Part shown: piece by piece, positions 2,196 through 30,643 of the stretch
Position numbering within the stretch: the first letter of the stretch is position 1
How the letters are laid out: every line of letters starts with the position of its first letter
NCBI RefSeq assembly: GCF_014850975.1
Contig: NZ_JACXST010000003.1
Coordinates: 806,001-870,000 of the forward strand
Origin: Methylomonas fluvii
GTDB lineage: Bacteria > Pseudomonadota > Gammaproteobacteria > Methylococcales > Methylomonadaceae
Length of the DNA: 64,000 bases
Direction of reading: 5' to 3'
Translations under genes and position numbers: made by a program
Notes under the pieces: model-generated
Told to the model about the DNA's origin: nothing
The model's database searches: none
The model's input: only the letters and a program-made list of their open reading frames with translations

Positions 2196-2247
2196 ATCAA
2201 CTCCGTAAAAAGGATGGGAATAAGCTTCCGGCAGGACATTCATCTAC

Positions 2248-2970: not shown

Positions 2971-2972
2971 GT

Positions 2973-3566
2973 CTAGTTCGCCTTCGGTCGATCAGCGGCG
3001 AGCTTTTCGACGATTTCCAACGCTTTGGCGACATTTTCTTCCGGCTTCAAACCACCCAAGGTCGCAGCAATTTTGCCGTTCGGCGTGATCACAAACGTGG
3101 TACGTTCGGCAAAGCCGTGGTTGATTTCCACGCCTCGGCTATCGGTTTTACCCGGCGCGGCGGCTTTCACGGCAATATCGTAATGACCGGAGATTTTGCC
3201 GTCGGCATCGGATGCCACCGGAAATTTGCTGGCGCAGTAATTGGGGTCGGCGGAAAAGTCGTTCAGGCGCTCGATGCTGTCCAGCGATACCCCGACGATG
3301 CTGGCACCGGCGGCGGCAAATTTTTCGTGATTGACCGCAAAACTATGCGCCTGCAGATTACAGCCGCCGGTATAAGCGGACGGATAGAAGTACACGACTA
3401 CCGGACCTTTCTTCAAAGCATCTTCCAGCGTGTAATTAAACGCCTTGCCGGCCAGGGAAGCTTGCGCTTGAAAATCCGGGGCTGGATGGCCTTCCGGGAG
3501 CGCGGCCATCACCGGCAAAGCAAAGACGGCAGGCAGCAGGCTTTTCAAAAATAAGTTTTTCATCAT
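2973..3566 (-). CDS. Exported peroxiredoxin (AhpC/TSA, BCP-like)
   Basis: Paralogue of the gene at 1605-2195, with a signal peptide (KNLFLKSLLPAVFALPVMA) and the complete peroxidatic motif FYPSAYTGGCNLQA (Thr and Cys both present). A second Cys in DPNYCASKFPVASD is a candidate resolving residue. Two ATGs are adjacent at the start (3566 and 3563); the second has slightly better spacing to the GAAG ribosome site. The gene starts 7 bp after the small cytochrome gene and ends 2 bp before the c4-like cytochrome, so the three are surely co-transcribed. Likely role: reduction of hydrogen or organic peroxides in the periplasm. Confidence 0.9.
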   Translation of the reverse strand: MMKNLFLKSLLPAVFALPVMAALPEGHPAPDFQAQASLAGKAFNYTLEDALKKGPVVVYFYPSAYTGGCNLQAHSFAVNHEKFAAAGASIVGVSLDSIERLNDFSADPNYCASKFPVASDADGKISGHYDIAVKAAAPGKTDSRGVEINHGFAERTTFVITPNGKIAATLGGLKPEENVAKALEIVEKLAADRPKAN

Positions 3567-8283: not shown

Positions 8284-8790
8284 TTAACCTTTATGCTTAT
8301 GGCCTTTGCTGTGCTCTTGCTCTTTGGCATGCTCTTCGGGCTTAGGCGCGGGCGGGACGATTTTGGTAATCTTGCCGCCCTCTTCTTCATAGTTTTGCGA
8401 ACCTATCGCGCCTACCACTTTGAAACCCTTTTCAGCCAGCAAATCGGCAGACTTACCGGCACGGCCGGCGTGATTGGACACAGTAACAATCGAGCGTTCT
8501 TTGGGGATAAACGGCAAAGCCTTATCCAGTTCATCGATTTGTACGTTCAAATAGACGGGAAAGGTACCGATCTTGCTGATCTCATCGGGACGGCGCACAT
8601 CGATAAACAATACTTGCTCAGGCTTGGCGAGTAAGGCATCGATTTCCGCGCGATTCAATTTGGGCGTTTTATAGGTATAAGGCCGCGCGGCCGGCGCCTC
8701 GGTTTTTTTACCGGCGTCCGCGTCGGCGGCAAAAGCGAGTGGAGCCGCCAAAATCAGAGCTAAAAGAGCCGCTGTGGTCGTGTTTTTCAT
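8284..8790 (-). CDS. Exported rhodanese-like domain protein lacking the catalytic Cys
   Basis: 168 residues with a signal peptide (MKNTTTAALLALILAAPLAFA) and a rhodanese homology domain from about residue 45: PEQVLFIDVRRPDEISKIG, then the active-loop equivalent SIVTVSNHAGRAGKS and LLAEKGFKVVGAIGS. In active rhodaneses the loop starts with Cys; here it is Ser (VSNHAGRAG), so sulfur transfer through a persulfide is not expected. The C-terminus is rich in His, Lys and Glu (EEHAKEQEHSKGHKHKG) and could bind metal. It is the first gene of the operon with the DUF1549/DUF1553 and DUF1501 genes, 64 nt downstream of the predicted sigma-54 start site. Possible role: periplasmic binding or sensing; unknown. 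Confidence 0.85.
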   Translation of the reverse strand: MKNTTTAALLALILAAPLAFAADADAGKKTEAPAARPYTYKTPKLNRAEIDALLAKPEQVLFIDVRRPDEISKIGTFPVYLNVQIDELDKALPFIPKERSIVTVSNHAGRAGKSADLLAEKGFKVVGAIGSQNYEEEGGKITKIVPPAPKPEEHAKEQEHSKGHKHKG

Positions 8791-8864: not shown

Positions 8865-8880
8865 GGCAACTAGCATGCCA
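8865..8880 (-). promoter_or_regulatory. Sigma-54 promoter of rhodanese-DUF1549-DUF1501 operon
   Basis: Minus strand reads TGGCATGCTAGTTGCC: GG and GC separated by exactly 10 bases with good -24 (TGGCAT) and -12 (TTGC) boxes. The predicted start is near 8854, 64 nt before the ATG at 8790. An inverted CAGCA (9022-9026) / TGCTG (9046-9050) pair lies about 140-170 bp upstream, the expected place for an activator site. Confidence 0.65.
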
Positions 8881-9300
8881 CTCGAAAAATATCCGCCATA
8901 AATAACCATTAACCCCTTGTTACCCATTGATTTAAAACGTGATATTTATTTAAAACTACTCTCGATAACGCTTGATAAATCCCTCAATATGCAAGTGCGG
9001 TCCAAGCAACTGGTGGAAATTCAGCAGGGTCGCAACATGCCCTGTTGCTGGGCTAGCACCACGCCAATCGTTGATTAGTCCGGCCGGACTTATCCCTGAT
9101 GCGCCGCTCGGGCTGAGCTCATCAAAGCCTGAAGTGCTTGGCGCTTCGACAAGCCCTTCAAAGGCAGAAAGGCGAGCGCTATTTAAGGTTGAGCTTAATA
9201 AAGTGGCTTGGGTCTATAGAAAGGAGGCGTACAGATAGGCCAAGCACGAACGCTGTAACTTCCCGGTCTGCGCCACTGGGAGTCCGGCCAAAACGCCGGA
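8881..9300. other. Intergenic region with palindromes, no gene
   Basis: No convincing coding frame. It contains the CAGCA/TGCTG inverted pair at 9022-9050, a perfect 14-bp palindrome AGTCCGGCCGGACT at 9077-9090, a stretch near 9140-9165 resembling scattered proteobacterial palindromic repeats, and a hairpin GTCCGGC/GCCGGAC at 9282-9301. The last one follows a foldable segment from about 9200 (GCTTGG pairing with CCAAGC). A structured RNA here is possible but unsupported. Confidence 0.4.
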
Positions 9301-9398
9301 CAAAAAAACGGGCTAAGGATCAATCCTTGCCCGTTAGAGGTTCTCACCACGAGAGCTTGATGAAATGCTGGTGGCCCTTAAGTCAGGTTTTAAGGGCC
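9301..9398 (-). terminator. Double hairpin with T7 run ending the TonB receptor-SMP-30 operon
   Basis: On the minus strand, 25 nt after the SMP-30 stop, a perfect 9-bp hairpin (GGCCCTTAA at 9373-9381 with TTAAGGGCC at 9390-9398) is followed by a second, longer hairpin. In that one AACGGGC/GCCCGTT and AAGGAT/ATCCTT form nested stems (9307-9335), directly followed by seven Ts (complement of 9302-9308). This is a classic factor-independent terminator. Confidence 0.8.
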
Positions 9399-9422
9399 GT
9401 TTGAGATACTTCGTCAAATTGG

Positions 9423-10381
9423 CTATTTCGGCCGACTGCTAATACCGGTAGTCAGCAACGGAATTTTATAGGCCGCGCCGCGACCGACGACATACAGGGT
9501 TTTCTTATCAATACCAGCAAACGCCAGGTTCTGCGGCTTTTTGGGTAGTGTAATCACGCCCAGGCTCTCACCTTTAGCGCTTATGATTTCTACGCCGGCA
9601 TTGGAAGCAACATACAACCTGCCTTCGTCATCCAATGCAATGCCGTCTGCACCGCTGGACCACGTGCCGTCTTCGCCTTTTTTCCAACCCTCCAGTTTGG
9701 CGAAATTGCGCCGATTCTGAATCGAGCCGTCCGCAGCAATATCGTAAGCCAGGATGTGTTCGCCTGGGGTATTGGCGACGTACAAAACTTTTTCGTCCTT
9801 GCTTAATTGAATACCGTTGGGCCGTTCAATGTCGGTCGCCAATTGTTTTAGCTCGCCGCCGGGTGAAATATAAAACACGCCGGGATGCGACGGCGGCGGA
9901 TTAGGATTTTCCTTGCTAGGCCGCGTACCGCTATCGGTAAAGTAGATACCGCCGTTGCTGGCGCGCACCAAATCGTTGGGCCGTTGAAATGCCGTGCCTT
10001 GATAATTTTCGGCCAAGGTATTTTTATTATTGGCCGGATAAACCACACCGACTTTGGTTTTGACGGTTTGTACCGCGACGATGTCACCGTCGGGCGTTAA
10101 CGCCAGGCCGTTGGCGCCGTTGGAGTTTTCCAGAAACGTCGAGACTTTGTCGTCCGTGCCGATCCGTATGATTTTGTTCGCTTGGGTTTCAGTAAACAAT
10201 AAACTGCCGTCACTATAACCAATAGGCCCTCGGTCCCGTTAAAGCCGTCTTTGATCAGCTCGGCTACCACACCGCCGGCGGCGACGCCGGGAATAGCTGG
10301 GGTAACCGGATCGTCCGCGCTGGCCGCCGCCACATAAATCAACGCGCTAAATCCCAGTAAATAGAAGTGTTTAGATAACAT
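9423..10381 (-). pseudogene. SMP-30/gluconolactonase-like exported protein, frameshifted
   Basis: The signal peptide (MLSKHFYLLGFSALIYVAAASA) and the first beta-propeller strand (AELIKDGFNGTEG) are in one frame from the ATG at 10381. The rest, from SDGSLLFTETQANKI to the stop at 9423, is in the next frame. The shift falls in the GGGCC run at 10225-10229: one missing C would restore the expected GPIGYSDG sequence and give 320 whole codons. SMP-30-type propellers hydrolyse lactones and related esters with a divalent metal. It directly follows the TonB receptor gene (74 bp) and shares its terminator, so it belongs to the same sigma-54 unit. Either a sequencing error or a recently broken gene; a shorter start at 10199 would lack the signal peptide. 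Confidence 0.8.
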
Positions 10382-10455
10382 AAGTATTTCCTTTGCAAAT
10401 GTTTCGATAAATCAGTTTGCCGGACGGCGGTCTAGCCGTCCGGCGAGTGTAACCA

Positions 10456-13212
10456 TTAGAATTTGGCTCTAAAGTGCACCCCGTAGTAACGCGCATCGCC
10501 GTAAGACGCACTCGCCGCGCCAGTACCGGAAAAGTTACTGGCATTGGTAAAGTAGATCGTGTCAAAGATGTTTCTACCGACCAAATCCAGGTTGTACTTG
10601 CCATTTTTAGTACCCACCCCAATCCCGCCATCGGTGACGTGATAGGCGTCCTGCTTACCATAGCGCGACAAACTGGCGTTATAGTTAGCCGCGGATTTAA
10701 AGCTATCGATCAAATAAGCATGCCACTGCAAACCGTAGTCGTTACCGTAGCCAAAGGTTAAAGGCGACCGGTAATCTATCCCGTAGTTAGCAGTAAACGC
10801 CGGCGCGTTCGGGATGGTTTTGCCGGTTTGATCGCAAAATCCGTTGTTATTCGCTTCCGGCGGGCACGGCGCGTTGGCAAAGTCGGTGTAAATGGCTTTG
10901 TTATACGAACCGTTCAAGAACACGTTCAAACCTTGAGTAATGTCCCAATTGGTTTCCAATTCGATACCGCGTAATTGAATACCGCCGATGTTACCGAGCT
11001 GAGACAAGAACTGCCCCGCCCGCAGTGGATCGGGCGCGACCAACTGCGATTGAAAACTTTGAATGTCGGTTTGGTACAAGTTGACGTTGAATACCAGCTT
11101 GCGATCCAGCCAAGTGCTCTTGAAACCAAATTCGTAGTCCATCACATCTTCCGGCTTGACGTTTTCCGTGGCCCCGGTGTTAAAGTTGAACTGTGCGGCC
11201 CCGGATTTTTGACCGCCGGCCACCGAACCGTAGACCATCAAATCTTTATTCACTTTGTAACTGGGATTGATTAACCAGTTTTGCGAATTCTGATCGAAAC
11301 CTTGCCGCGGCGCGTCCCATTCCGGGCCCAAACGATTGCTGCGGATAGCCTTGGCCGCTGCAATCTGCGCGGCATTGGAGCCCAAGGAAGCACCCAAAGC
11401 ATCTAAATCCACACCGCCCAAATTCCGGCTATAACCGGTGTTCTCCCGACGTTCATACGTATTGCGCAAACCTAAGGTCAAAGTCGCATCATCGGTGACA
11501 TGCCAGTTGATCTGACCGTAGCCGGCATAGCTATCGGTGGCAGGCACCACGTTTTGCGTCAGCATGGTGTCGCGCATGGACGCCGCCAATAATTGCCTGG
11601 ACGCCGGACTGGCATTCAACAGGCTGTACTGGCTATTGCTGGCGTGGAAAGCGCCGGCATCTACCCCGAAAAGGCGTTGATTAAAGGTATTGGCGATAGC
11701 GCGCATTGCAAATACGCCGAATTGGTAATCGACGGGCCCAGGGTCTTTCGAGGCTAATCTGAGCTCCTGCGACCACTGTTCGTTTTTAACGGTCCAACCG
11801 GAGATCCGTTCGATATCGGCCGTCGAACCATCGCCATCATGGTTAGGTTCGAACAACGCATCCCGGTAAGCGGAAATCGAAGTCAACCGATGTCCTGCCA
11901 CATCCCAGTTTATTTCCGCCGACACCCCGGAACCGTCACCGCGCGATTGGCGCCGTTCGTTATTCGCCATCGCTCTCGGATCACCAATCACGGTCACCGC
12001 TTGACCATTGGTTCGCAGTGTATTGAACCAATCCCTGGCCAACCGGGTACTGAAGGTCGTGTTTCGCAGGGTGCCATCATCAAATCGCGTAGGATCGGCG
12101 ATCAGGGGTTGCACGCTCATGGTTTGAGTCGAGGCCGTTTTATCGACAATCAGCCGCGCGCTCAAATCTTCGCTTGGTGTAAACAGAAACTGCAAACGCC
12201 CACCCAGCGCATTGGTCTCGCCTAAATCACCCTCACTGCGATGCACATCCAAATTTTTCACAAAGCCATCACGCTTATCGATAAAACCGGAAGCGCGATA
12301 CGCCAGCAAACCAGGCAAAATGGTACCGGTAGCGCCGAATTTGCCTTGCAGGGTATCCCTATCCCCCGCGAAGCCATCCACGTAATAACTGTTCTTGAAT
12401 GAAGGTGCTTTGGTGGTAATGTTCAGCAAACCCAGATTACTGTTTTTACCTTGCAGCGTACCTTGCGGACCGCGCAACACTTCCACCTGATCCAAATCAG
12501 CAAAGTTGGCCCACGCCGCACCCGTCCATGCCCGCCAGACGTTATCCACCATCACGCCAACACTGGGCTCCATGGATTCATTACCGCTGTTTTTACCCAA
12601 ACCCCGCAGCGCAATACTGGTTTGCCGGGCGTTGGCAGACGTTACACCCAGGTTAGGTGCACGCCGGGAAAAGTCTTGTACCGACACCACGTTATCCCGC
12701 TCCAGCGTTTCCCGATTGATTACCGCCACCGGAATCGGCACTTCTTGCAACTTCTCTTCCTTACGCCGCGACGTTACGACCACTTCCGACAGGTTTTGCG
12801 GCTCGTCGGCCTTCTCTTCCGGCTCAGGCTCAGCGGCGGCTGCGACATTGTCCGGCTCCTGACTGGTTTGCGCAGCCGGATCGGTAGTAGCAGGCACCGG
12901 CGCGACCGCCACACCTCTTTTAAGTAAATCCTGCTCACGCCGTTTTGAAGCTTCCAATTCGCGGCTCAAGCGTTCGACCTGTGCTTGTAAATCGTTCACT
13001 TTGGTATCGGCAACCGCTTTATTACCGGTCTTTTTCGCGCTTTTTTTCACCGGCGCGGTTTGGGCGGTCGCATCGCTAGCAATCAGCATTGAACCACCCG
13101 CTATAGCCATTGCCACACATACCGACAAACCGCGCCGATTGCTGATGTGCAGCGGCACTTTCACCGATTCAATGCTGTCTGCCGACAGACTCCCAATTAA
13201 ATTTTCCTTCAC
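10456..13212 (-). CDS. TonB-dependent receptor with N-terminal coiled-coil extension (1)
   Basis: Outer-membrane TonB-dependent receptor of about 918 residues. The start is the GTG at 13212, preceded by AGGTGAG. The ATG at 13347 lies upstream of the predicted sigma-54 promoter (13298-13313) and cannot be in the mRNA. The signal region (NRRGLSVCVAMAIAGGSM... up to about DATAQTA) is followed by a charged coiled-coil (LQAQVERLSRELEASKRREQ), a Pro/Glu linker, a Ton-box-like LSEVVVTSRRKEEK and the plug (RQTSIALRGLG, DQVEVLRGPQGTLQGKNS). The barrel ends in YGVHFRAKF with the terminal Phe typical of outer-membrane proteins. It shares the signal-plus-coil layout with the neighbouring receptor, implying a common ancestor. 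Substrate unknown; the sulfur-scavenging context is inferred. Confidence 0.9.
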   Translation of the reverse strand: MKENLIGSLSADSIESVKVPLHISNRRGLSVCVAMAIAGGSMLIASDATAQTAPVKKSAKKTGNKAVADTKVNDLQAQVERLSRELEASKRREQDLLKRGVAVAPVPATTDPAAQTSQEPDNVAAAAEPEPEEKADEPQNLSEVVVTSRRKEEKLQEVPIPVAVINRETLERDNVVSVQDFSRRAPNLGVTSANARQTSIALRGLGKNSGNESMEPSVGVMVDNVWRAWTGAAWANFADLDQVEVLRGPQGTLQGKNSNLGLLNITTKAPSFKNSYYVDGFAGDRDTLQGKFGATGTILPGLLAYRASGFIDKRDGFVKNLDVHRSEGDLGETNALGGRLQFLFTPSEDLSARLIVDKTASTQTMSVQPLIADPTRFDDGTLRNTTFSTRLARDWFNTLRTNGQAVTVIGDPRAMANNERRQSRGDGSGVSAEINWDVAGHRLTSISAYRDALFEPNHDGDGSTADIERISGWTVKNEQWSQELRLASKDPGPVDYQFGVFAMRAIANTFNQRLFGVDAGAFHASNSQYSLLNASPASRQLLAASMRDTMLTQNVVPATDSYAGYGQINWHVTDDATLTLGLRNTYERRENTGYSRNLGGVDLDALGASLGSNAAQIAAAKAIRSNRLGPEWDAPRQGFDQNSQNWLINPSYKVNKDLMVYGSVAGGQKSGAAQFNFNTGATENVKPEDVMDYEFGFKSTWLDRKLVFNVNLYQTDIQSFQSQLVAPDPLRAGQFLSQLGNIGGIQLRGIELETNWDITQGLNVFLNGSYNKAIYTDFANAPCPPEANNNGFCDQTGKTIPNAPAFTANYGIDYRSPLTFGYGNDYGLQWHAYLIDSFKSAANYNASLSRYGKQDAYHVTDGGIGVGTKNGKYNLDLVGRNIFDTIYFTNASNFSGTGAASASYGDARYYGVHFRAKF

Positions 13213-13297
13213 GATCTCACCTATGCGAATGTTACAAAAACCAATTCGAGCCAACGCCAAAACGACGCCCGCCATTCGAACTTTCTGTAACGCTCTT

Positions 13298-13313
13298 CGC
13301 AACGACCATGCCA
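13298..13313 (-). promoter_or_regulatory. Sigma-54 promoter of TonB receptor 1
   Basis: Minus strand TGGCATGGTCGTTGCG: GG-N10-GC with consensus-like -24 and -12 boxes; predicted start about 75 nt before the GTG at 13212. Upstream, 13438-13490 contains TGTTG and TGCTG sites 21 bp apart, the palindrome TCAGC-CGGT-GCTGA (13451-13464), and the word TGAACGGTCAT, which is shared with the enhancer array at 16.9 kb. Confidence 0.75.
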
Positions 13314-13543
13314 GCGGCAGCCCCTCTTGCTGCCAGCCACCCATCAATTCGCTTTAAACTATTGAATTAAAATATCAATTTTAAAATGCGATTTGGCTGT
13401 CGGTTTAACACCATGACACCGCTGCCGGGTGGCAAACTGTTGAACGGTCATCAGCCGGTGCTGACCCACTGTTCGCCTGCCAACAGTTCCATGTCAAGTT
13501 GATGAGTTGCGTTGAATGGCAGCTTTTGCTCAGGCTTTTCAGC

Positions 13544-16500
13544 CTAAATTTTCCCACTCAGCTGAATGCCAAACCAGCGTGGATAAGGGTCTGGCCCGTA
13601 AGAATTCCAGCCAATTTCGTGATTTCTATCGTTGAAGATGTTTTTACCGATCAGGCTCAAATCCCAGTGCTTGTCGCGGGTACCGACACCGATCGCCGCG
13701 TCCGTGCGGGCTCTATCCCCTACCCAACCGTAGGCGGATAAGGTATCGCTGTTATTGAACTCGGTTTGGTAGTTGGTATTAAAGCTGGTGTGCGCGATGT
13801 ATTTGCTCTCGAAAATCGGTTTGGAATACTCGGCACCGACGTTGAAATTCCATTTGGACGCACCCGGTAGATACTGGCCGGTCATATCGACGTAATCCCC
13901 GGTCAGATAACCCAACTCATCGGGCTTGGGTGCGTTTTTGTAATCCAGATATTCGGCAACGTTATAGGCGCCGTTGAAACGGATGGACAAATCGGGAATG
14001 GTGTTGATCACGCTGTCCAACTCCACGCCGTGCACTCGGACCCGGCCGACGTTGCCCTGGGTAGTCGCGTAGGCTGTCAGGCCGGAACCGCCGGGTGCCA
14101 AGTTGACTTCGGTTTGGAATTGGTCGACTACCTGCACGGCTTGCTGGTAATTTTTAATGTCCATGACAAACGCATCGACATTCAGCACCACCGACTTATC
14201 CAGCCAAAAGGATTTAAAACCGAGCTCTAGGGCATGCGTTTCTTCCGGTTTGACAGTGAAAGACAGACCATTGACCGGCGCAATCGATCCGGATTTCTCG
14301 CCGTATTGCCAGGACAAATAAGTCGTCAGGTCTTCATTGATTTTGTAGCTGGGCGTCAATTGCGCGGTATACAGTACATCCCGGTAATTATCCTCGACGG
14401 TTTGATTCAAACGGCCGATTTGCGAAGCACGCAAGGTTTTGGCGTTGGCGACCATGGTTTTTTGGGCGCTGGTCAACGCCGCATAGCTGGAACCGCCAAA
14501 GTAACGAGCCGCCAGGGAATCGGCCAGCGCGGTTTGCTCGGCGCTGTTCGCCACGGCATCGCCAGCCACAACAGCGGTTTGCGCCGCGTTGAGCTTACCG
14601 TAATTGGTCGTCGATCCGTAGAAGGTGTTGGTCACCGTTTTATTCGATCCGTCAGGGTTTTTGTCAGGGACGCCGTCGCCATCCACATCGACGGTAAAGG
14701 ACTGCGCGGTATCGGAATTAAAGCCGCCGGTGGCTACGTTACGCACCGATTCCGGATTAAACGCCCCGCCAACGCCATTTCTGGCAATATTCTTAAAGTT
14801 GCGCGACGTACGGTCTTCATGCGTGGCCCGGACCCCGGCGGTAAGCGTGAAGTTGTCGGTAAAATGCAAATCCGATTCGCCGTATAGGGCGCCGGATTGG
14901 GTGCGGATCTCGGTAGATTCGAAGGTGCGGGCATCCTGCAACAGGTCTTTCAGGATGGCCACGCCAGCGCCGCGATTGGCGCCGGCGTTTCGATATAAAG
15001 CATTGTACTGGCCATTGGTGGCAAACCAGGCCCCGGCGTCGGCACCCCAACCGGCTTTCGAGTCTACATTATCCTTGGTCCATAAACCGATTACGCCGGC
15101 CTTGTAATCTAAAAAGCCGCCCGGTTTGTTGACGATTTTAAATTCCTGCGTCCATTGATTGTATTTAACCCCACCGCCGCCATCGACGCTGATGTCAAAC
15201 GGCGTGCCTTCGTCGTTGTGCGCATCAAAGCGATATTCGCGCACCCCGGTCCTGGAACTCAACACATGATTGCCAACTTCCCAGTCGATTAATGCCGCAG
15301 CGCCCTGGTTATTGACGGTTTGGCCTTTGTTTTGATCGAACCAGACGGTGCCGCGTTGTTCGCCGCCGATATAATCGTTATAGGCAAAACCTCTGTTGGC
15401 AAAATACTGGCCGGCCGCCGCTCTTGAGCCAACGGCGCTGATCGCCCCCGGACTGGTGGTATCGGTCAATGCAAATTGGTTGCTATGGCTGAAATAGCCA
15501 TTGAGTTTGGAATAAGCGGACGTGCCATTACGGTCCGTGAGACTGCCGTCGGCAAATCTAAACGGCTGATCGTGGAAGAATGTCAAACCGTTTTGTAACT
15601 GCGGCTGCTTAGGCTCGAAGTCGGCGATAAACCGCGCCGTTAAGTTTGAGGTAGGCGTAAACAGCAACTGCGCGCGCCCGCTCAAGCGATCACGGTTATA
15701 TAGCGTGTAGTTTCTGTCGTATTCGTTTTCATAAAAACCGCGCGCCTTGTCGACGATAAGCGAACCGCGCCAGGCCAGAAAATTATCGATCACCGTCCCG
15801 CCCAAAGCACCTTGCAATACCAACGACTCCCGTTGCCCATAGGCAGCGGACAATTCCGCTGTGGGCGCAAAGGTCGGTAGTTTAGAGGTGACGTTGACCT
15901 TACCGGAGCTGGCGGCCAAACCACCTTCCGTACCACGCGGCCCGCGCGTGACTTCTACCGCTTCCACATCGTAAAAACTGAAGTTAGCCAACTGCGTCAA
16001 GGCATAGGGTACGCCGTCCACCGTCACGCCGACGCTAGGGTCCTGCGTTTCCGTGAAACTTCGTTTACCTAAACCGCGCACCGATAGCGAGGCGCCGCGG
16101 GTATTGTTTTGATTGAATTGCACGTTGGACGCGCGGCGGGTGATGTCGCCCAAATCTCTGGACAGTTCCCGGTTAAGTTCAGTACCGGATACCACCGACA
16201 CCGATTGCGCGACTTCGTGTAGTTTTGCCAATTTGGGTTTGGCCTTTACAACTACTTCACCCAAATCCGCCTTTTGATCGTCGTCGTTCTGGGCTAACTC
16301 GGTTGCCTGTGCTTCGTTCGGTGCGGCAGCGGTTTCCGCGCTTGGTGCGCCGGCATTAGCGGTTCCGGCTGGCGCGGTGCCCGTTGCGCCTTTTTTGATA
16401 AACTCCAATTCACGTTGTTTGGCTGCGGCTAGCTGCTGACGCAAAGCCTGATTTTCCGCTTCCAAATCGCTGACCGCTTTGCTGTTTACGGTTTTGGTTT

Positions 16501-16669
16501 TGCTGTTTTTTTTCGGTGCGGCTTCCACGTCGACTGCAGACGCCATGGACACACCGGCGATAGCCATTGCCACGCAGGTCGATAACCTACGTCGCGCACT
16601 GATTGCTTGAGGGACCCCATCCTGTCGAATAGCGCTTATTGAAAAAGCACTTGCTAATTTATCGCTCAC
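13544..16669 (-). CDS. TonB-dependent receptor with N-terminal coiled-coil extension (2)
   Basis: Receptor of about 1041 residues starting at the GTG at 16669 (ribosome site TTAGGTGG). The upstream ATG at 16738 leaves almost no room between the predicted transcription start (~16749) and the start codon and has no ribosome site. The N-terminus mirrors receptor 1: ARRRLSTCVAMAIAGVSM, then a coiled coil (SDLEAENQALRQQLAAAKQR), an Ala/Thr-rich linker and LGEVVVKAKPKLAKL before the plug (GASLSVRGLGKRSFTETQ, EAVEVTRGPRGTEGG). A calcium-type acidic loop (TVDVDGDGVPDKNPDG) is visible near the middle of the barrel. The C-terminus FGIQLSGKI is close to, but not exactly, the usual terminal aromatic. Probable uptake of a scarce organic nutrient across the outer membrane. 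Confidence 0.9.
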   Translation of the reverse strand: MSDKLASAFSISAIRQDGVPQAISARRRLSTCVAMAIAGVSMASAVDVEAAPKKNSKTKTVNSKAVSDLEAENQALRQQLAAAKQRELEFIKKGATGTAPAGTANAGAPSAETAAAPNEAQATELAQNDDDQKADLGEVVVKAKPKLAKLHEVAQSVSVVSGTELNRELSRDLGDITRRASNVQFNQNNTRGASLSVRGLGKRSFTETQDPSVGVTVDGVPYALTQLANFSFYDVEAVEVTRGPRGTEGGLAASSGKVNVTSKLPTFAPTAELSAAYGQRESLVLQGALGGTVIDNFLAWRGSLIVDKARGFYENEYDRNYTLYNRDRLSGRAQLLFTPTSNLTARFIADFEPKQPQLQNGLTFFHDQPFRFADGSLTDRNGTSAYSKLNGYFSHSNQFALTDTTSPGAISAVGSRAAAGQYFANRGFAYNDYIGGEQRGTVWFDQNKGQTVNNQGAAALIDWEVGNHVLSSRTGVREYRFDAHNDEGTPFDISVDGGGGVKYNQWTQEFKIVNKPGGFLDYKAGVIGLWTKDNVDSKAGWGADAGAWFATNGQYNALYRNAGANRGAGVAILKDLLQDARTFESTEIRTQSGALYGESDLHFTDNFTLTAGVRATHEDRTSRNFKNIARNGVGGAFNPESVRNVATGGFNSDTAQSFTVDVDGDGVPDKNPDGSNKTVTNTFYGSTTNYGKLNAAQTAVVAGDAVANSAEQTALADSLAARYFGGSSYAALTSAQKTMVANAKTLRASQIGRLNQTVEDNYRDVLYTAQLTPSYKINEDLTTYLSWQYGEKSGSIAPVNGLSFTVKPEETHALELGFKSFWLDKSVVLNVDAFVMDIKNYQQAVQVVDQFQTEVNLAPGGSGLTAYATTQGNVGRVRVHGVELDSVINTIPDLSIRFNGAYNVAEYLDYKNAPKPDELGYLTGDYVDMTGQYLPGASKWNFNVGAEYSKPIFESKYIAHTSFNTNYQTEFNNSDTLSAYGWVGDRARTDAAIGVGTRDKHWDLSLIGKNIFNDRNHEIGWNSYGPDPYPRWFGIQLSGKI

Positions 16670-16759
16670 TATGCCACCTAAACGAATGTTAAAAAAATCG
16701 ATAAAAACTAACGCTAATACTGTGCCGTCTAAAAGCACATCCGGCTCTAATATCGATTT

Positions 16760-16775
16760 TGCAATAGGTATGCCA
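16760..16775 (-). promoter_or_regulatory. Sigma-54 promoter of TonB receptor 2
   Basis: Minus strand TGGCATACCTATTGCA, the closest match in the window to the -24/-12 consensus (GG-N10-GC). Predicted start about 80 nt before the GTG at 16669. An AT-rich tract (about 16793-16862) separates it from the TGCTG array and could help DNA bending. Confidence 0.8.
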
Positions 16776-16915
16776 GCAATAGTGAAAGCGTATTAGTGGT
16801 AAACAATCCCCGAAAAAATATTTATAAAATACTGTTATATATAAAAAATAAATTAATTACTTGTGATCAACCGGAAAAATTAACAGCCAGTCCACGCGCT
16901 GTTTTTATCAAAATC

Positions 16916-17028
16916 TGCTGAAACCCAAACAACTACTGCTGGCAACATGAACGGCCTTTGCTGTTAGGCTGAACGGTCATTGCTGATCGCCTGAAAGACG
17001 TCTGCTGAATTGGAAATACTTTTTGCTG
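16916..17028. promoter_or_regulatory. Array of six helically phased TGCTG sites (putative enhancer)
   Basis: TGCTG begins at 16916, 16937, 16959, 16981, 17003 and 17024, spacings of 21, 22, 22, 22 and 21 bp, i.e. two helical turns each. Within units 2-4 the second half is also similar (TGAACGG, TGAACGGTCAT, TGAAAGACG). The array lies between divergent sigma-54 promoters, about 140 bp from the leftward and 190 bp from the rightward one. This fits binding sites for a sigma-54 activator stacked on one DNA face. No coding frame of interest is in this 600-bp region. Confidence 0.7.
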
Positions 17029-17220
17029 ATGGCCTGCACTTGGGTCAACAAGTTTGGCCAAATCCATCGGACTCCTCTGCCGTTTACCCTAAGCCTTACT
17101 GGAAAAATGCCGCGTGCAAGCACTGGCGCGCTAATGACAAAGCTTGAAATATCAGCCCGTGTAGAGTTTATGACTTTTTACAGTCAGATTTTTTGTGACT
17201 CACACGGATAAAACAAAATA

Positions 17221-17237
17221 TTGGCTTGATCATTGCT
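17221..17237 (+). promoter_or_regulatory. Sigma-54 promoter of arylsulfotransferase gene
   Basis: TTGGCTTGATCATTGCT: GG at 17223-17224 and GC at 17235-17236, exactly 10 bases apart, with TTGCT at -12. Predicted start near 17248, 36 nt before the ATG at 17284; AAAGGAA precedes the ATG as ribosome site. Confidence 0.7.
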
Positions 17238-17283
17238 TAATACCAAAAGCAATCGCAAACACCCGTTTATAAAGGAATAAAAA

Positions 17284-18723
17284 ATGACACACATCAGACC
17301 CTCCGCAAGCGCGCATGGACGCAAAAAAAACCGGGCATCACGTCAATCCCAGACTTGGCAACAAGCCACATTGATCGCCTTAGGCACGGCCCTCAGTGTC
17401 TCGGCTTTATCGGGGCCGAGTGTTTTTCCCACTGGCACCACGCGTTACGATCCCAGCAAAGCCTATAACTCTTTTGTTTTGTTCAGCGGCGGCGACAACA
17501 TCGCGCATTTGATCGATTTAAACGGAAACTCCGTACATGAATGGCCGGATGCCGCCAGCCACAGCACCTTAATCAACCCAGCATTGACCGGCGGCAAACT
17601 GGGACATGTGTTTGTGACGCAGGAAACCACCGAAGGCAAAGGCACAGACCTGGTGCCCGGCCAAGTCAGCAAGAAAATCACCAAAACCATTGCCGAGCTG
17701 GATTGGGATGGCAAAACCGTCTGGCGTTTTGGCGACAAAGCTCCCGGCGGCGCGGCGCAACAACATCATGACTGGGCCAGATTGCCCAACGGCAATACGG
17801 TGGTGTTGGCTAACCTGGTGCACCCAGTTAAGGGTTTTAAACAAGCGCAGGTACTGGACGATGTGATTTACGAAGTCAATCCGGCAGGCGAAGTGGTCTG
17901 GAAATGGATAGCCTCCGAACATCTTAATGAATTTGGCTTCACACCCGCCGAACTGAAACTGGTCCGCAACGCCGAAATCGCCGACTATCTGCATGTCAAC
18001 AACCTGAAAGTCGTTGGCCCAAATCATTGGTATGCCGCCGGCGACCAGCGCTTTCATCCGGATAATTTGTTGATCGACGCGCGCAACGCCAATTTCATCA
18101 TCATTATTGAAAGGAAGACCGGCAAAGTAGTCTGGAACCTGGGGCCGCACTACCAAGCCGCGTCCATTGAAGAACAACAAGCCCGCAAGGTACCGCGCCC
18201 GGTCGATCAAATCAGCGCCCAACACGATGCGCATATCATCCCGGAAGGCTTACCCGGCGCCGGGAATTTGCTGGTATTCGACAATCAAGGCATCGCCGGT
18301 TACCCGCCGGCTCCCGTGCCGCGTACCGGTGGTTCGCGCGTATTGGAGATAGATCCGATCAAGAAAGAAATTGTCTGGCAGTACACGGGTGAGAGTTCCG
18401 GTGGCCCCAGTTGGTCGTTTCGCAGCACCCATATCAGCGCTGCCCGCCGCTTGCCTAACGGGAATACTTTTATAGACGAGGGCCAGAGTGGACGCTTATT
18501 CCAAGTCACAGCCGACGGCGACATAGTCTGGGAATATATCAATCCGTATTTTCGTATCGGTAAGGATGCTTTGACCGGCCGGGCCACCGCCAACAACTCG
18601 GTATATCGCGGCCAACCGGTACCTTACGATTGGGTGCCGGCCAGCACACCGCATAGTGAAAATCCGGTCAGTGCGCCTGATTTGAGTAAATTTCGGCTAC
18701 CGGTAGCCAGCAACAAACCCTAA
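17284..18723 (+). CDS. Arylsulfotransferase (ASST)-family protein
   Basis: 479-residue protein of the bacterial arylsulfotransferase beta-propeller family. It shows repeated propeller blades with the NG-x-x / VW-x-W signature (AHLIDLNGNSVHEWPDAASH, LPNGNTVVLANLVHP, NPAGEVVWKWIASEH, KEIVWQYTG, LPNGNTFIDEGQSGRLFQ, DGDIVWEYINP). Conserved histidines occur in QQHHDWARL, SAQHDAHIIPEG and SFRSTHISAA, as expected for phospho/sulfo-histidine chemistry at the propeller centre. The N-terminus is long and basic (HGRKKNRASRQSQTWQ) before a hydrophobic segment, suggesting export. Family members move sulfate between phenolic esters in the periplasm. It is sigma-54 controlled and next to the regulator, which supports an organosulfur role. 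Confidence 0.82.
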   Translation: MTHIRPSASAHGRKKNRASRQSQTWQQATLIALGTALSVSALSGPSVFPTGTTRYDPSKAYNSFVLFSGGDNIAHLIDLNGNSVHEWPDAASHSTLINPALTGGKLGHVFVTQETTEGKGTDLVPGQVSKKITKTIAELDWDGKTVWRFGDKAPGGAAQQHHDWARLPNGNTVVLANLVHPVKGFKQAQVLDDVIYEVNPAGEVVWKWIASEHLNEFGFTPAELKLVRNAEIADYLHVNNLKVVGPNHWYAAGDQRFHPDNLLIDARNANFIIIIERKTGKVVWNLGPHYQAASIEEQQARKVPRPVDQISAQHDAHIIPEGLPGAGNLLVFDNQGIAGYPPAPVPRTGGSRVLEIDPIKKEIVWQYTGESSGGPSWSFRSTHISAARRLPNGNTFIDEGQSGRLFQVTADGDIVWEYINPYFRIGKDALTGRATANNSVYRGQPVPYDWVPASTPHSENPVSAPDLSKFRLPVASNKP

Positions 18724-18768
18724 AGCAACTTGGCAAAAAACCAAGGCACGCTGTATTCAATTTTAAAA

Positions 18769-18871
18769 CCATGGGTTTCGGGGTATCCGGTCGTGATGTT
18801 TGGTAGACGGGTTACTGCCATTAAGCTGAAAGGAACAGGCACTCCACAGCCGGATACCCCGAAACCCATGG
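18769..18871. repeat. Perfect 22-bp inverted repeat with 59-nt loop
   Basis: Arms at 18769-18790 (starting CCATGGGTTTCGGGG) and 18850-18871 (ending GAAACCCATGG) are perfect reverse complements over 22 bp. The element fills most of the gap between the arylsulfotransferase stop (18723) and the cupin start (18901). In the mRNA it would form a very stable hairpin; alternatively it is a ~103-bp palindromic mobile remnant. Confidence 0.85.
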
Positions 18872-18900
18872 CACTAACGCTTTATAATTTGGAGACTAAG

Positions 18901-19356
18901 ATGTTACGTAAACCTATTCGGCCAGCGCTATCGATCTTGACGATCGCGCTATGCTGCGCGTATAGCGCGGCGGCAGCATTGGAACTCGACCCCAAAGCCA
19001 TCAACATCAAACTGCCCGAGCAGATTAATTGGGTGGCAAACCCCAGCGGTTCGGAGAGCGCGGTACTGGTAGGCGATCCTAACAAACCCGGCCTGTATGT
19101 CGTGCTGAACAAGTGGAAGGCTCATCATAGTAGCAAGCCGCATTCGCATCCGAACGACCGCTTCATAACGGTGATTTCAGGGACTTGGTGGGTAGGCACC
19201 GGCACGGATTATGATCCGGCGCATTTGCAAGCAGTACCGGCGGGCAGCTTCGTCACCCACTACGGCAACGAAATCCATTATGACGGTGCCAAAGACGAAG
19301 ACACGATTCTGCAGATTGTCGGCATAGGCCCGGCGACTTCTACCCCGGCCCCTTAA
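18901..19356 (+). CDS. Exported small cupin-domain protein
   Basis: 151 residues from the ATG at 18901 (GGAG 8 nt upstream), beginning with a signal peptide (RPALSILTIALCCAYSAAAALE). An upstream in-frame start at 18730 would read through the inverted repeat and is rejected. The cupin motifs are clear: KWKAHHSSKPHSHPNDRFITV, GTWWVGTG, then PAGSFVTHYGNEIHYDG, giving His ligands for a metal in a jelly-roll. It follows the arylsulfotransferase gene, probably in one transcript, with the 22-bp inverted repeat between them. Likely a periplasmic metal-binding or isomerase/dioxygenase-like protein; reaction unknown. Confidence 0.82.
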   Translation: MLRKPIRPALSILTIALCCAYSAAAALELDPKAINIKLPEQINWVANPSGSESAVLVGDPNKPGLYVVLNKWKAHHSSKPHSHPNDRFITVISGTWWVGTGTDYDPAHLQAVPAGSFVTHYGNEIHYDGAKDEDTILQIVGIGPATSTPAP

Positions 19357-19365
19357 AAATAGCTA

Positions 19366-19388
19366 GCAGCTCGCTATCAGCGAGCTGC
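19366..19388. terminator. Bidirectional terminator hairpin
   Basis: GCAGCTCGCT (19366-19375) and AGCGAGCTGC (19379-19388) form a perfect 10-bp stem with a 3-nt loop between the convergent cupin and regulator genes. On the minus strand it is followed by TAGCTATTTTT, so it best serves the regulator gene but may stop both. Confidence 0.75.
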
Positions 19389-19394
19389 CTGAGA

Positions 19395-20471
19395 TTACTC
19401 TTCGCTTTCTTCGTAGGCGACGGCCAATTTTCTCTGACCATTGGCCAACATGCCATACAGCCCCAGCTTGTGCCGCAGGACATTGCGGCTAATATCCAGC
19501 AAGCGCGCGGTTTGTACCTGATTTTCTTCGCAAAACTCGAACGCTGTGCGAATCACGGTTTCTTCGATAATATCGAACAACTTAGGCGGGGCTTGTTCGC
19601 ACAAGCGCAGTAGCGAACTTTCCAACGAAGAGGTGGAAACCACAGGCCCGCTCTGCGAGACCCGTACCCCGGATAGCTTAAAGTCCTCCGGACGCAAGCG
19701 ATTGCCAGGGCAGACCAACAATGCTCTATGCACGGCATTTTCCAGCTCACGAATGTTGCCGGGCCAATCGTAATTTAACAAGGCCAACTCGGTGGATGGC
19801 GATAATTTGATTTCGCCATAGCCCAGGCGGTCGCCGTAAACTTTCAGAAAGTGCCTGGCCAAAGGCAAAATGTCGCCCGGACGCTCCCGTAACGGTGCCA
19901 GATGAATCGCCGCCACATTAAAGCGGTAATACAGATCGGCGCGAAAATGCGACGCCGCCACCGCTTCTTCCAAATTAACATTGGTAGCGGCGATGACCCT
20001 GACATCCACCGGCGACGGCGTGCGCGAGCCCACCTTGACCACTTCCCTTTCCTGCAATACCCGCAATAATTTCGCTTGCAAGCCGAGCGGTAAATCGCCG
20101 ACTTCGTCCAGAAACAAACTACCCTTATTGGCGGTTTCAAACCAACCTTCTTTGGTATTCAAGGCACCGGTGAAAGCGCCTTTTTCGTGGCCGAACAATT
20201 CGCTTTCGATGAGGTTTTCACTGAGTGCCGCGCAATTCAGAGCCCCGAACGGTCCTTTGGCGCGCTTGCTCAGTGCATGCACATGCCTGGCGACCAATTC
20301 CTTGCCGGTGCCGGTCTCACCGATGATCAGCACTGTCGCATCGCTGGGCGCAATCCGCTCGATGTGCTCCAACAGTTTTCGTGAAACCGGATCCTCGAAC
20401 ACCATCGCGGTCGCCCGCACCGTGTGCGACAGCTGTCTTAATTGCAATTCGTCAAATGCCAATAATGTCAT
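19395..20471 (-). CDS. Sigma-54 enhancer-binding activator, SfnR-like
   Basis: 358 residues consisting of a short N-terminus (about 20 residues, no receiver, GAF or PAS domain), a full AAA+ domain and a C-terminal Fis-type helix-turn-helix. Visible motifs: Walker A GETGTGKE, the sigma-54 contact loop EKGAFTGAL, Walker B GSLFLDEVGD, arginine fingers in FRADLYYRFNV, sensor II-like DWPGNIRELENAV, and the HTH NQVQTARLLDISRNVLRHKL. The sequence EDPVSRKLLEHIERIAPSDA before Walker A is like SfnR-type regulators of dimethylsulfone/sulfonate use in pseudomonads. Without a sensory domain, its activity is probably set by its own expression, as for SfnR under sulfur limitation. It is the natural activator of the surrounding -24/-12 promoters. 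AGGGG precedes the ATG. Confidence 0.92.
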   Translation of the reverse strand: MTLLAFDELQLRQLSHTVRATAMVFEDPVSRKLLEHIERIAPSDATVLIIGETGTGKELVARHVHALSKRAKGPFGALNCAALSENLIESELFGHEKGAFTGALNTKEGWFETANKGSLFLDEVGDLPLGLQAKLLRVLQEREVVKVGSRTPSPVDVRVIAATNVNLEEAVAASHFRADLYYRFNVAAIHLAPLRERPGDILPLARHFLKVYGDRLGYGEIKLSPSTELALLNYDWPGNIRELENAVHRALLVCPGNRLRPEDFKLSGVRVSQSGPVVSTSSLESSLLRLCEQAPPKLFDIIEETVIRTAFEFCEENQVQTARLLDISRNVLRHKLGLYGMLANGQRKLAVAYEESEE

Positions 20472-20668
20472 ACGGTTTCCCCTTTACTGCGAGCAACGAT
20501 GCCGTCACTCAAAAATTGTTCCATGAAAGCTCTTTTCCTAAAGATGTCAAAAATAGTGATTCGTCAGGGCAGCGCAAATCAACTGCCGATACGCCAACGC
20601 CAAACAAAAATCAGCCTTACCAAGCCCAAAGTCAGCCCACACACCGGCACCAGGGCTGAGCACAGGCC

Positions 20669-20773
20669 AAAAAAAAGCCAGCAGTCCTTTGGGGGACACA
20701 CTGGCTTCCGGCGATCCGGTCAGCAGAAGTGGATGTTATCGAGACAAAATGCTCGGAAAATAACAGCGAGATA
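20669..20773 (-). ncRNA. Candidate ~105-nt sigma-54-dependent small RNA
   Basis: A strong factor-independent terminator on the minus strand (AAGCCAG 20675-20681 pairing with CTGGCTT 20701-20707, inner GTCC/GGAC stem, then eight Ts complementary to 20669-20676) lies about 200 bp upstream of the activator gene with no gene before it. A GG-N10-GC element on the same strand (20784-20799) puts a start near 20773. The product would be about 105 nt with no good start codon and ribosome site. Target and function unknown. Confidence 0.5.
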
Positions 20774-20783
20774 CCAGGCTCTA

Positions 20784-20799
20784 AGCATGGTTCATGCCA
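20784..20799 (-). promoter_or_regulatory. Sigma-54-like promoter of candidate sRNA
   Basis: Minus strand TGGCATGAACCATGCT: exact GG-N10-GC spacing and TGGCAT at -24; the -12 box is ATGCT instead of TTGCT. TGCTGA (20873) and a GTGTTGA/TCAACAC palindrome (20883-20900) lie 75-115 bp upstream. Confidence 0.5.
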
Positions 20800-21049
20800 C
20801 TTCGTGTTTTCAGCACATAATAATGGATTACAGGTTTTTGCGAAACCCAAATGTTGCCACATCAACATAATCTGCTGATTGAGTGTTGATATTTCAACAC
20901 ATTTTCATAGACCTGCATTTTACTGGCGGGTCATTGCCTTTTTTCGCGCTAATCCAATTAACTCGGGCTTTTTCAATAAGCCCAGTCGGCCGAAATCGCT
21001 TCTTAAACATGCCCACTATGTTTCGGACTGTTCGTATAGCAGCAGCATT

Positions 21050-21076
21050 TGCTGATGCCATGTCTGTAAATCAGCA
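21050..21076. promoter_or_regulatory. TGCTGAT-N13-ATCAGCA palindrome upstream of tatA
   Basis: Perfect 7-bp arms (21050-21056 and 21070-21076) containing the same TGCTG word as the 16.9-kb array, about 120-145 bp upstream of the tatA -24 box. Candidate activator site. Confidence 0.5.
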
Positions 21077-21194
21077 TTTTTTGGGATAGTTGCCGTTGAA
21101 CCGCCTGCTTCCATACTCGATAACGTAAACGGGTACGGTTGATATGCCTGGAACACAGCGGTACTTTGGCGTATTCCAGTGCTCACTCGGCAGA

Positions 21195-21211
21195 TTGGCC
21201 CCTATCTTGCT
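21195..21211 (+). promoter_or_regulatory. Sigma-54 promoter of tatA
   Basis: TTGGCCCCTATCTTGCT: GG at 21197-21198 and GC at 21209-21210, exactly 10 bases between. Predicted start near 21222, 70 nt before the tatA ATG. Confidence 0.65.
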
Positions 21212-21291
21212 GAAGACCGCCTTGAAAAGGCTAAGTCACTATCCCCAAGCGGCTTAACTAATCTCAGCAACTTTCAACTTTGGAGCAAAAC

Positions 21292-21519
21292 ATGGGCTTG
21301 AGCATTCCCCATCTATTAGTAGTTTTAGCGATTGTGGTCTTGGTGTTCGGCACCAAGCGCCTGAAAAATGTCGGCGCCGATCTGGGCGATGCGATCAAGG
21401 GATTTCGTACAGCCGTAAAGGAAAGCGAAGAAGCCGAAGAGGCCAAGGCCATCACCCAACTCTATCAGGAAGAATTATCCGACGAGTTGATAGGTAAAGC
21501 TGACCGCACCAAGGCTTGA
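21292..21519 (+). CDS. tatA: TatA/E-type twin-arginine translocase subunit
   Basis: 75 residues starting [20 protein letters not shown], the single N-terminal membrane helix of TatA/TatE with the [14 protein letters not shown] hinge and amphipathic helix after it, then a charged tail. The ATG at 21292 has TGGAG 7 nt upstream; a TTG at 21280 would only add four residues. TatA multimerises to form the passage for folded Tat substrates. No tatB or tatC is nearby, so this is an extra copy that would work with TatBC encoded elsewhere. Its sigma-54 promoter places it with the activator's regulon, which includes a Tat-signal protein (DUF1501 at 4314-5777). Confidence 0.92.
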
Positions 21520-21708
21520 TACACTAGGTTGCTGTTCTCAGGATAAAGGCGCTTAGACCAGCGTGCTGCCAAAACAGCAGCTTTTGATCCTCATCTGTTC
21601 GAATAACAACAGCTTAGAACATTCGCCCGGCAAAAATTATGCTGTAGATTCTCACCTAAGCCCAAGCGCATGCAGGACACTATGCTTGGAAAAACCGGTG
21701 GAGATTGC
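21520..21708. other. Intergenic region with TGCTG/CAGCA palindrome
   Basis: No gene seen. TGCTG-CCAAAA-CAGCA (21564-21579) is a perfect inverted pair followed by TTTT at 21582. It could be a weak tatA terminator or an activator site about 130 bp upstream of the RND promoter. Confidence 0.4.
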
Positions 21709-21725
21709 TTGGTATAGCACTTGCT
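21709..21725 (+). promoter_or_regulatory. Possible sigma-54 promoter of RND operon
   Basis: TTGGTATAGCACTTGCT: exact GG-N10-GC with TTGCT at -12, although the -24 box is TTGGT instead of TGGCA. Predicted start near 21736, 80 nt before the RND start codon. Confidence 0.55.
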
Positions 21726-24992: not shown

Positions 24993-24998
24993 AATCCT

Positions 24999-30630: not shown

Positions 30631-30643
30631 TACAAGCCCGGCC

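Follow-up and report, generated by a model that had tools for sequence, protein, structure and literature searches.

The stretch of DNA analysed here, referred to below as the window, comprises 64,000 nucleotides of Methylomonas fluvii (contig NZ_JACXST010000003.1, positions 806,001 to 870,000), and contains a block of genes preceded by candidate sigma-54 promoters and grouped around the gene for a sensorless, SfnR-type sigma-54 activator (19395..20471, reverse strand). Also on the reverse strand are genes for a DUF1501 protein (4314..5777), a DUF1549/DUF1553 protein (5882..8218), a rhodanese-like protein with a probable export signal, recognised by eye (8284..8790), an SMP-30/gluconolactonase-like protein (9423..10381) and two TonB-dependent receptors (TBDRs), TBDR1 with a probable GTG start (10456..13212) and TBDR2 with a start inferred from the translation (13544..16669). 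The forward strand carries genes for an arylsulfotransferase-like protein of the ASST family (17284..18723), a cupin-like protein (18730..19356), a TatA/E-type protein (21292..21519) and an RND permease with a membrane-fusion protein (21816-24992 and 24999-26216; together 21816..26216). These assignments come from Pfam, joined by NCBIfam for TatA; the cupin-like protein falls just below its cut-off (26.0 bits against 27). A first-pass annotation, made by a model from the sequence alone, had named two TonB receptors, an arylsulfotransferase-like enzyme, a DUF1549/DUF1501 operon, TatA and an RND pump, and Pfam confirms this gene content. The operators, the rhodanese-like first gene, the SMP-30 gene, the cupin, a set of redoxin and cytochrome genes, and the kinship of a leader RNA with cysteine genes, all described below, go beyond it.

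Several of these proteins merit closer description. The DUF1501 protein has a signal of the twin-arginine (Tat) type, SRRDFLIK, identified by eye, and similar signals are found in L093 and L075 (L-numbers denote fetched stretches, among them those of up to 20 kb around homologues of the activator and the ASST-like protein). A possible relationship of the DUF1501 protein to a mucin-desulfating sulfatase was discarded, the match being far too weak (E 0.26). In the rhodanese-like protein the position normally occupied by the active-site cysteine holds no cysteine (VSNHAGRAG in the window and L093, VSNHAHRAG in L075), so sulfur transfer by that route would not be expected. The SMP-30-like frame is broken in the window, and it is open across this break in L057, L058, L059 and L070. 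The ASST-like protein scores above the cut-offs of both Pfam Arylsulfotrans and Arylsulfotran_2, as members of that family do; unlike the solved sulfotransferases, however, to which it is only weakly similar (9kf4, E 0.0003), its catalysis is putative. The motifs HD, YLHVNN and QHD align between the two proteins, and their histidines may be the catalytic ones.

Seven elements with exact GG-N10-GC spacing precede genes of the block, each in the place where the first-pass annotation had put it. To evaluate them, a generic sigma-54 matrix of consensus frequencies, independent of the window, was scanned over the 64 kb at a cut-off of 13 bits. Only eight sites reach this value; the seven best (13.4-17.8 bits) are the elements just mentioned, all within a 13-kb block, and the eighth lies at 36445 (13.1 bits). 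Simulated sequence of the same composition (30 runs) contains a mean of 4.7 such sites per 64 kb, or about one per 13 kb. The excess over the whole window, eight observed against 4.7 simulated, is therefore modest, and the notable feature is the clustering, with seven of eight sites in a single 13-kb block and every one of them preceding a gene. A looser pattern allowing up to three mismatches was dropped because it gave no excess (305 in the window, against a mean of 327 by chance). The elements on the reverse strand serve the rhodanese-like/DUF1549/DUF1501 genes (8865..8881, 14.9 bits), TBDR1 (13298..13314, 16.1 bits), TBDR2 (16760..16776, 17.8 bits) and the activator leader (20784..20800, 14.1 bits); those on the forward strand serve the ASST-like gene (17221..17237, 15.0 bits), TatA (21195..21211, 13.4 bits) and the RND genes (21709..21725, 14.2 bits). 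Transcription is predicted to start near 8854, 13287, 16749, 17248, 20773, 21222 and 21736. The idea that all the 5′ leaders are short and similar (36-80 nt) survives for six elements, with predicted lengths of 64 nt for the rhodanese-like gene, 75 nt for TBDR1 (GTG start at 13212), 36 nt for ASST, 70 nt for TatA, 80 nt for RND and, provided that the start is the GTG near 16669 read from the translation, about 80 nt for TBDR2. It fails for the 20784 element, which is separated from the activator start by 302 nt that include a terminator. The genome, 5.59 Mb in size, has a single RpoN gene.

The first-pass annotation had suggested a comparison of the block across genomes, and in that comparison the promoters recur both in close and in distant relatives. 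Gene order is kept in eight close clusters (L057-L064) as far as the stretches reach; the ASST gene is absent or broken in L062, L063 and L064, and TBDR2 is mostly absent in L062 and L064. Elements of at least 13.4 bits are present in all eight clusters for the rhodanese-like gene, TBDR1 and TatA, in seven for RND (L057-L061, L063 and L064), in six each for TBDR2 and ASST, and in five for the activator leader, whose element scores 12.9 bits in L062 and L063. In the distant, rearranged clusters L075 and L093, a sigma-54 element still stands at each of the TBDR (37-40% identical), ASST and rhodanese-like genes, in the last case at the same place as in the window; the activator lies about 9 kb past the rhodanese gene in L075, and the nearest activator to L093 is about 2.6 Mb away. 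L076 and L094 also keep the elements at TBDR and ASST. The ASST gene occurs in 14 of 61 genomes, and each of the 14 encodes an activator that is 79% or more identical, the limit having been chosen post hoc; such an activator occurs in 24 of the 61. This conservation, together with the promoter ranking, supports the earlier claim of a compact sigma-54 regulon.

Upstream of five of the seven promoters are candidate operators, pairs of CTGYTG-N6-CARCAG palindromes 32 bp apart, which were first spotted as TGTT-N8-AACA palindromes near promoters and then scanned for. They precede the rhodanese-like gene (9010..9059, reverse; palindromes 9010-9027 and 9042-9059), 128 bp upstream of its sigma-54 element; TBDR1 (13437..13486, reverse; 13437-13454 and 13469-13486), with a possible third site at 13397-13414; the activator leader (20851..20900, reverse; 20851-20868 and 20883-20900), 50 bp upstream of its element; TatA (21028..21077, forward; 21028-21045 and 21060-21077); and the RND genes (21563..21612, forward; 21563-21580 and 21595-21612). 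A matrix built from ten window sites was then applied to 31 other loci, comparing 50 spacings per locus. The top spacing was 32 bp in 13 of the 31 (L065-L069, L071, L073, L075, L076, L082, where it is weak, L085, L090 and L093), and also in L094; it was 42 bp, one helical turn more, in L070, L072, L077, L078, L079 and L081, and 31 bp in L083, L084, L089 and L091. With the plain consensus (at most one mismatch per site) in the 31 loci outside motif discovery, 13 of 36 pairs are spaced at exactly 32 bp out of 72 possible spacings; these pairs are partly non-independent, because L071/L073 and L078/L079 are orthologous.

The operator pair was also captured in a sequence model, R2, built from 15 sequences, including the five window pairs. 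Over the M. fluvii genome it recovers those five, as expected from their place in the training set (the match at the rhodanese-like gene is among them), and three more places with E values of 0.0007, 0.04 and 1.7. The last, at C3:1049979, is inside a reading frame and probably arose by chance. The other two are at C3:708404 (L282:7403-7452), between an IorAB-like oxidoreductase set with a Tat-type signal and a gene for a small metal-binding protein, and at C3:720789, preceding a GTP cyclohydrolase II gene; the promoter-like sequences at both have TTGA in place of TTGC. Judged by eye (alignment A4, columns 22-28), most of the 15 sequences also seem to share an ATCAGCA-like or TGCTGA-like third half-site in a constant position between the palindromes.

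The targets of such operators in relatives are varied. Pairs spaced at 31 bp, with sigma-54 elements, precede alkanesulfonate monooxygenase (SsuD) genes above the family cut-off in L088 and L091, a DszC/SfnB-like gene in L091 and an MsuE-like gene in L090, the latter two below cut-off. Operators are also found at the redoxin operon (L070), at the rhodanese gene (L075 and L093), and at the activator gene itself (L062, L063, L065-L067, L074 and L076). TonB genes occur near 42-bp pairs in L072 and L077, where the pairs sit inside reading frames. Further targets are DUF2341/ExbB-type proton-channel genes (L071:1513-3366 and L073:305-2161, and, there without a sigma-54 match, L076:10527-12311), an arrangement suggesting that the TonB receptors have an energy supply of their own.

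The predicted regulator is a sigma-54 activator in which Pfam finds an AAA+ domain from residue 24, its lid and a Fis-type helix-turn-helix (HTH_8 at residues 302-336, 20.1 bits against a cut-off of 22), and no sensor domain. Its likeness to SfnR, first proposed from the sequence alone, is borne out by this layout and by a comparison with annotated plasmids (2,479 records). Among the matches listed, the activator and a regulator beside msuE-ssuD on a Pseudomonas aeruginosa plasmid are reciprocal best matches at 60% identity, the next protein of the M. fluvii genome reaching 45%; this reciprocity holds within the plasmid collection and the M. fluvii genome, Pseudomonas chromosomes lying outside the comparison. 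Among the matches listed, the neighbourhoods of H1 and H5-H8 were inspected (H2-H4 were skipped, their neighbourhoods being unannotated), and all five contain sfnG, msuE or ssuD: msuE-ssuD in P. aeruginosa, sfnB-sfnG-msuE in Burkholderia pyrrocinia, sfnG-msuE-ssuD in Azospirillum, ssu genes in Sphingobium and sfnG-msuE in B. glumae. In pseudomonads, according to a passage of PMC8234197, msu genes are likewise accompanied by sfnR or by sfnR1/sfnR2. We use the name SfnR for the plasmid regulators because of these neighbours and that passage; the records themselves do not use it. Operator-like pairs at L266:8563 (31 bp, 26.0), L270:6289 and L268:6666 adjoin sigma-54 elements before msuE.

Between the activator promoter and the activator gene lies a leader RNA (20669..20732, reverse strand) consisting of a 22-nt core (20703-20724), GCYGACCGGANNNCCGGAAGCC, followed by an intrinsic terminator. 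The core includes a perfect dyad, CCGG-N4-CCGG, and could close by GCU pairing with AGC around a CCGG hairpin. Because its final GCC also starts the terminator stem, the closed core and the terminator would be mutually exclusive. The leader has no match in Rfam 15 at the gathering threshold, in a search of the window and four loci, and the 251-base leader stretch searched at E up to 10 gives two matches, both far below threshold. R1, a covariance model of core and terminator built from 11 sequences, matches in 41 of the 61 genomes at E ≤0.01, and at 51 places in 33 genomes at E ≤1e-7, counted among the matches listed; weak matches in L260, L261 and L262 (32-33 bits) were set aside as ordinary terminators that lack the core. 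Across the class, three of 369 genomes match, M. fluvii included, so the terminator form is narrow in distribution. The core pattern, searched over 84,980 species, recovers at least 119 stretches; in the 80 of these that were listed, the R1 scores show a clear gap, with 61 sites (59 loci) reaching at least 38 bits and all others 25 bits at most. Among the matches listed, the terminator form is found mainly in Methylococcales and Methylophilaceae. In 106 aligned matches (102 distinct), 98.8% of the cells pair in the terminator, with double changes at nine of 14 pairs (111 cells), a result reached by none of 500 shuffles; the alignment had been fitted to the structure, a bias towards such a result. 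At loci found with the pattern, a conserved core follows from the search itself, which does not apply to the R1 matches across the 61 genomes or to the terminator covariation. The core pairs are neither supported nor contradicted by covariation, because they hardly vary. A leader peptide ending at the UGA of GCUGA was rejected by eye, since copies differ in the codon ahead of UGA and some have GCCGA instead.

Which genes follow this leader? The sequences examined contain 147 distinct exact cores; a terminator stem accompanies 109 of them and is missing from 38. Downstream genes were scored with 11 reference proteins, namely the activator and the products of ten sulfur genes, and the counts cover only those genes. 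A reference protein lies downstream in the same orientation for 104 of the 109 terminator copies, the first being cysK in 46, epsC in 32, encapsulin in 12, the activator in 11, and cysJ, a cysteine desulfurase and a cysA-like gene in one each; five copies have none, two of them with less than 250 nt of sequence left. Matches on the opposite strand number only three. Some of these assignments need correction: L112, scored as cysteine desulfurase, begins with a cysK-like frame, L158, scored as cysK, begins with an epsC-like frame, and the 'cysA' of L231 is a MetQ gene. The distance from core to start is 80-261 nt (median 100) for cysK, 83-315 nt (median 128) for epsC, 117-194 nt for encapsulin and 118-129 nt for cysJ. 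M. fluvii itself has a second copy of the leader on C3, about 5 kb to the left of the window (L096:14034-14095), and the genes following it (L096:14034-18682) encode, above NCBIfam cut-offs, cysteine synthase, EpsC, a family 2A encapsulin and its cysteine-desulfurase cargo. This second copy adjoins genes for CysT and a sulfate ABC ATP-binding protein (above cut-off), and for a CysB-like regulator (below cut-off). The exact core occurs in 18 of 36 activator stretches (L057-L092), mostly before cysK or epsC outside L057-L067.

The first-pass annotation had taken the 20784 transcript for a small RNA. A stand-alone, sigma-54-dependent small RNA acting in trans would agree with its own promoter, its strong terminator, the activator start 198 nt further on, and the fold of the predicted 111-nt transcript, which is better than that of most shuffles (z -2.27; 5 of 200 equally good). 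We nevertheless consider such a molecule quite improbable, because core and terminator precede cysK, epsC, encapsulin and cysJ in gene orientation, as a cis-acting leader would; trans action could also be compatible with a terminated leader. The transcript is better read as the terminator-bearing leader, or attenuator, of the activator gene.

The 38 cores without the terminator raise another alternative, namely that a sulfur transcription factor recognises the core as double-stranded DNA. Downstream of these copies, sbp was found nine times, epsC and cysJ once each, a meaningless 26% cysA match once, and no reference gene 26 times. That some precede sulfur genes without the same kind of terminator would suit a DNA site, as would the perfect dyad of the core. 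However, the shared orientation of 104 of the 109 terminator copies, the participation of the core GCC in a terminator stem that covaries, and the position of five Alteromonadales-type copies only 58-87 nt before the sbp start argue for RNA, and we regard a DNA site as unlikely. The four remaining sbp genes, in Verrucomicrobiota, are about 1.5 kb away; there (L162, L198, L212 and L241) the core stands directly before porin-like genes preceding sbp, and Pfam, run on two of the four, finds porins. Elsewhere the core precedes cysH in Sporosarcina (L216:2488-3231; among the 26 copies with no reference gene) and metQ in a metagenome-assembled genome of Bacillus (L231:242-1069), with no Rfam match above threshold at these places, and leader-like elements precede a gene for a FadL-type outer-membrane protein (L256:2755-2816) and genes for OsmC-like proteins (L168 and L117), all named by eye. 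The other terminator-less cores with no reference gene, of those looked at, look like chance occurrences.

As a tentative proposal that falls somewhat short of probable, we suggest that the core represents a new class of sulfur-sensing RNA. It would control a terminator before cysK, epsC, encapsulin/cysteine-desulfurase, cysJ and sfnR-type activator genes in Methylococcales and Methylophilaceae. Alteromonadales, Verrucomicrobiota and perhaps Bacillota would have versions that lack this terminator or use another. The hairpin capped by the GCU/AGC pairing could hide the GCC of the terminator, and a ligand (O-acetylserine, cysteine or sulfide) or a protein would pick the fold.

The first-pass annotation had also suspected a connection with organosulfur compounds. 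The predicted sulfur link of the regulon is well supported at the sequence level: the leader is common to cysK, epsC, encapsulin and cysJ genes, and cysteine or sulfate genes lie in the same stretch as the activator in 11 of 29 loci, divergent from it in several. It is because of these neighbours and the shared leader that the activator can be tied to sulfur. Might the block instead serve metal or siderophore-type uptake, with TonB receptors for import and RND proteins for efflux, the sulfur link of the activator being secondary? The NCBIfam matches of the two TBDRs are mostly siderophore, heme and B12 receptors, those of the RND permease include CusA/CzcA, and one of the extra genomic operators adjoins the gene for a small metal-binding protein. 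However, every such NCBIfam match is below its curated cut-off, whereas the relatives of the activator, their neighbours, the nearby cysteine genes and the shared leader indicate sulfur; a metal role as the main function therefore appears very improbable.

We consider it quite probable that the block is an SfnR-type sulfur-limitation regulon, which would have been retargeted from cytoplasmic oxidation of sulfonates and sulfones to outer-membrane uptake and periplasmic processing. The features that carry this reading, namely the promoters, operators, orthology, leader, covariation and gene neighbours, are all properties of the sequence. How might such a regulon work? Since the activator has no sensor domain, its amount is the simplest control point, and would set the activity of the regulon. 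The activator gene would be read from its sigma-54 promoter with its own operator pair, probably by self-activation. An ample sulfur supply would let the leader terminator end transcription, whereas under sulfur limitation read-through would yield more activator. The activator would then bind the palindrome pairs, whose 32-bp spacing corresponds to three helical turns, and drive the sigma-54 promoters of the two TonB receptors, the ASST-like and cupin genes, the rhodanese-like/DUF1549/DUF1501 set, TatA and the RND pump. The two receptors may bring in, through the outer membrane, a sulfur source that is large or scarce, TatA may help to export the DUF1501 protein with its Tat signal, and the ASST-like, DUF1549 and DUF1501 proteins may process the imported compound in the periplasm. 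Four points of this scheme are inferred: the binding of the activator, its self-activation, the sign of the response to sulfur, and the substrate.

Several observations weigh against this interpretation. First, in the leader, the terminator ends 198 nt before the activator start, and the core lies a median of 253 nt from the start of activator genes compared with 100 nt for cysK; moreover, half of the activator stretches (18 of 36) lack the exact core, which precedes the activator in just 11 (L057-L067). Second, the operators of TBDR2 and ASST are weak, consisting of scanned sites between the two genes (16915..17051; at 16915 and, 32 bp apart, at 17002/17034). Third, against a control of 15-kb stretches (119 loci minus nine holding the activator), which gives 0.02-0.06 such pairs per 15 kb, operator pairs stand above the control in only three of five SfnR-type plasmid loci (L266, 26.5; L270, 22.6; L268, 21.2, at 42 bp), and the best pair of L266 (6373, 26.5) falls within tssA and was left out of the promoter operators. 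Fourth, the M. fluvii genome gives no SsuD or SfnG match; sulfonate monooxygenase targets are present in the relatives L088 and L091, whose activators are 56-57% identical. Fifth, the block appears to hold no proven sulfur enzyme, given the missing cysteine of the rhodanese-like protein and the weak likeness of the ASST-like protein to solved sulfotransferases. Finally, activator binding and the expression of the regulon are predictions from sequence.

The closest known system is the Pseudomonas SfnR regulon for the use of sulfones and sulfonates, which shares a sensorless activator, 60% identical to ours in the P. aeruginosa plasmid regulator, as well as sigma-54 promoters. Three of the five SfnR-type plasmid loci also have operator-like pairs before msuE, at about 31 bp in the P. 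aeruginosa plasmid and B. glumae and at 42 bp in Azospirillum, a likeness judged by the motif of this analysis. Unlike that regulon, however, the activator gene here has a conserved terminator leader, and the present regulon is seen as retargeted because SsuD and SfnG were not found in the genome while its targets are TonB receptors, exported proteins, TatA and an RND pump. The leader resembles the S-box (SAM-I) and other sulfur attenuators in that a conserved leader with an intrinsic terminator precedes many sulfur genes, but it has no Rfam 15 match over threshold and its core spans 22 nt; known S-adenosylmethionine (SAM) aptamers are far larger. Qrr is a sigma-54-dependent small RNA encoded beside its activator, and the 20784 transcript likewise is short, terminated, read from a sigma-54 promoter and adjacent to an activator gene; unlike Qrr, the element is also a leader of cysteine genes, and it lacks an Rfam match. 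A literature text search, covering mostly papers available without subscription, found no description of such a system.

Two further features of the window deserve mention. A set of redoxin, cytochrome c and redoxin genes (1605..3566, reverse strand) accompanies the cluster in L062 and L070, and partly in L064 and L075. Upstream of these genes in the window we found no operator better than three mismatches, and an operator and a sigma-54 element precede the corresponding redoxin genes in G012 (L070:3920 and 4081). A flavin mononucleotide (FMN) riboswitch at 30479-30637, which adjoins a DHBP synthase gene, is the sole Rfam match in the window at the gathering threshold.

If the interpretation proposed here is correct, an SfnR-type activator would be linked to TonB-dependent uptake and Tat export in a methane-eating bacterium. 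This would offer a testable role for the DUF1501/DUF1549 and ASST-like proteins of methanotrophs, for which exact operators, promoters and predicted transcription starts are now available. The leader RNA connects the activator with cysteine synthesis and with encapsulin/cysteine-desulfurase genes, and it may represent a sulfur-sensing RNA class absent from Rfam 15.

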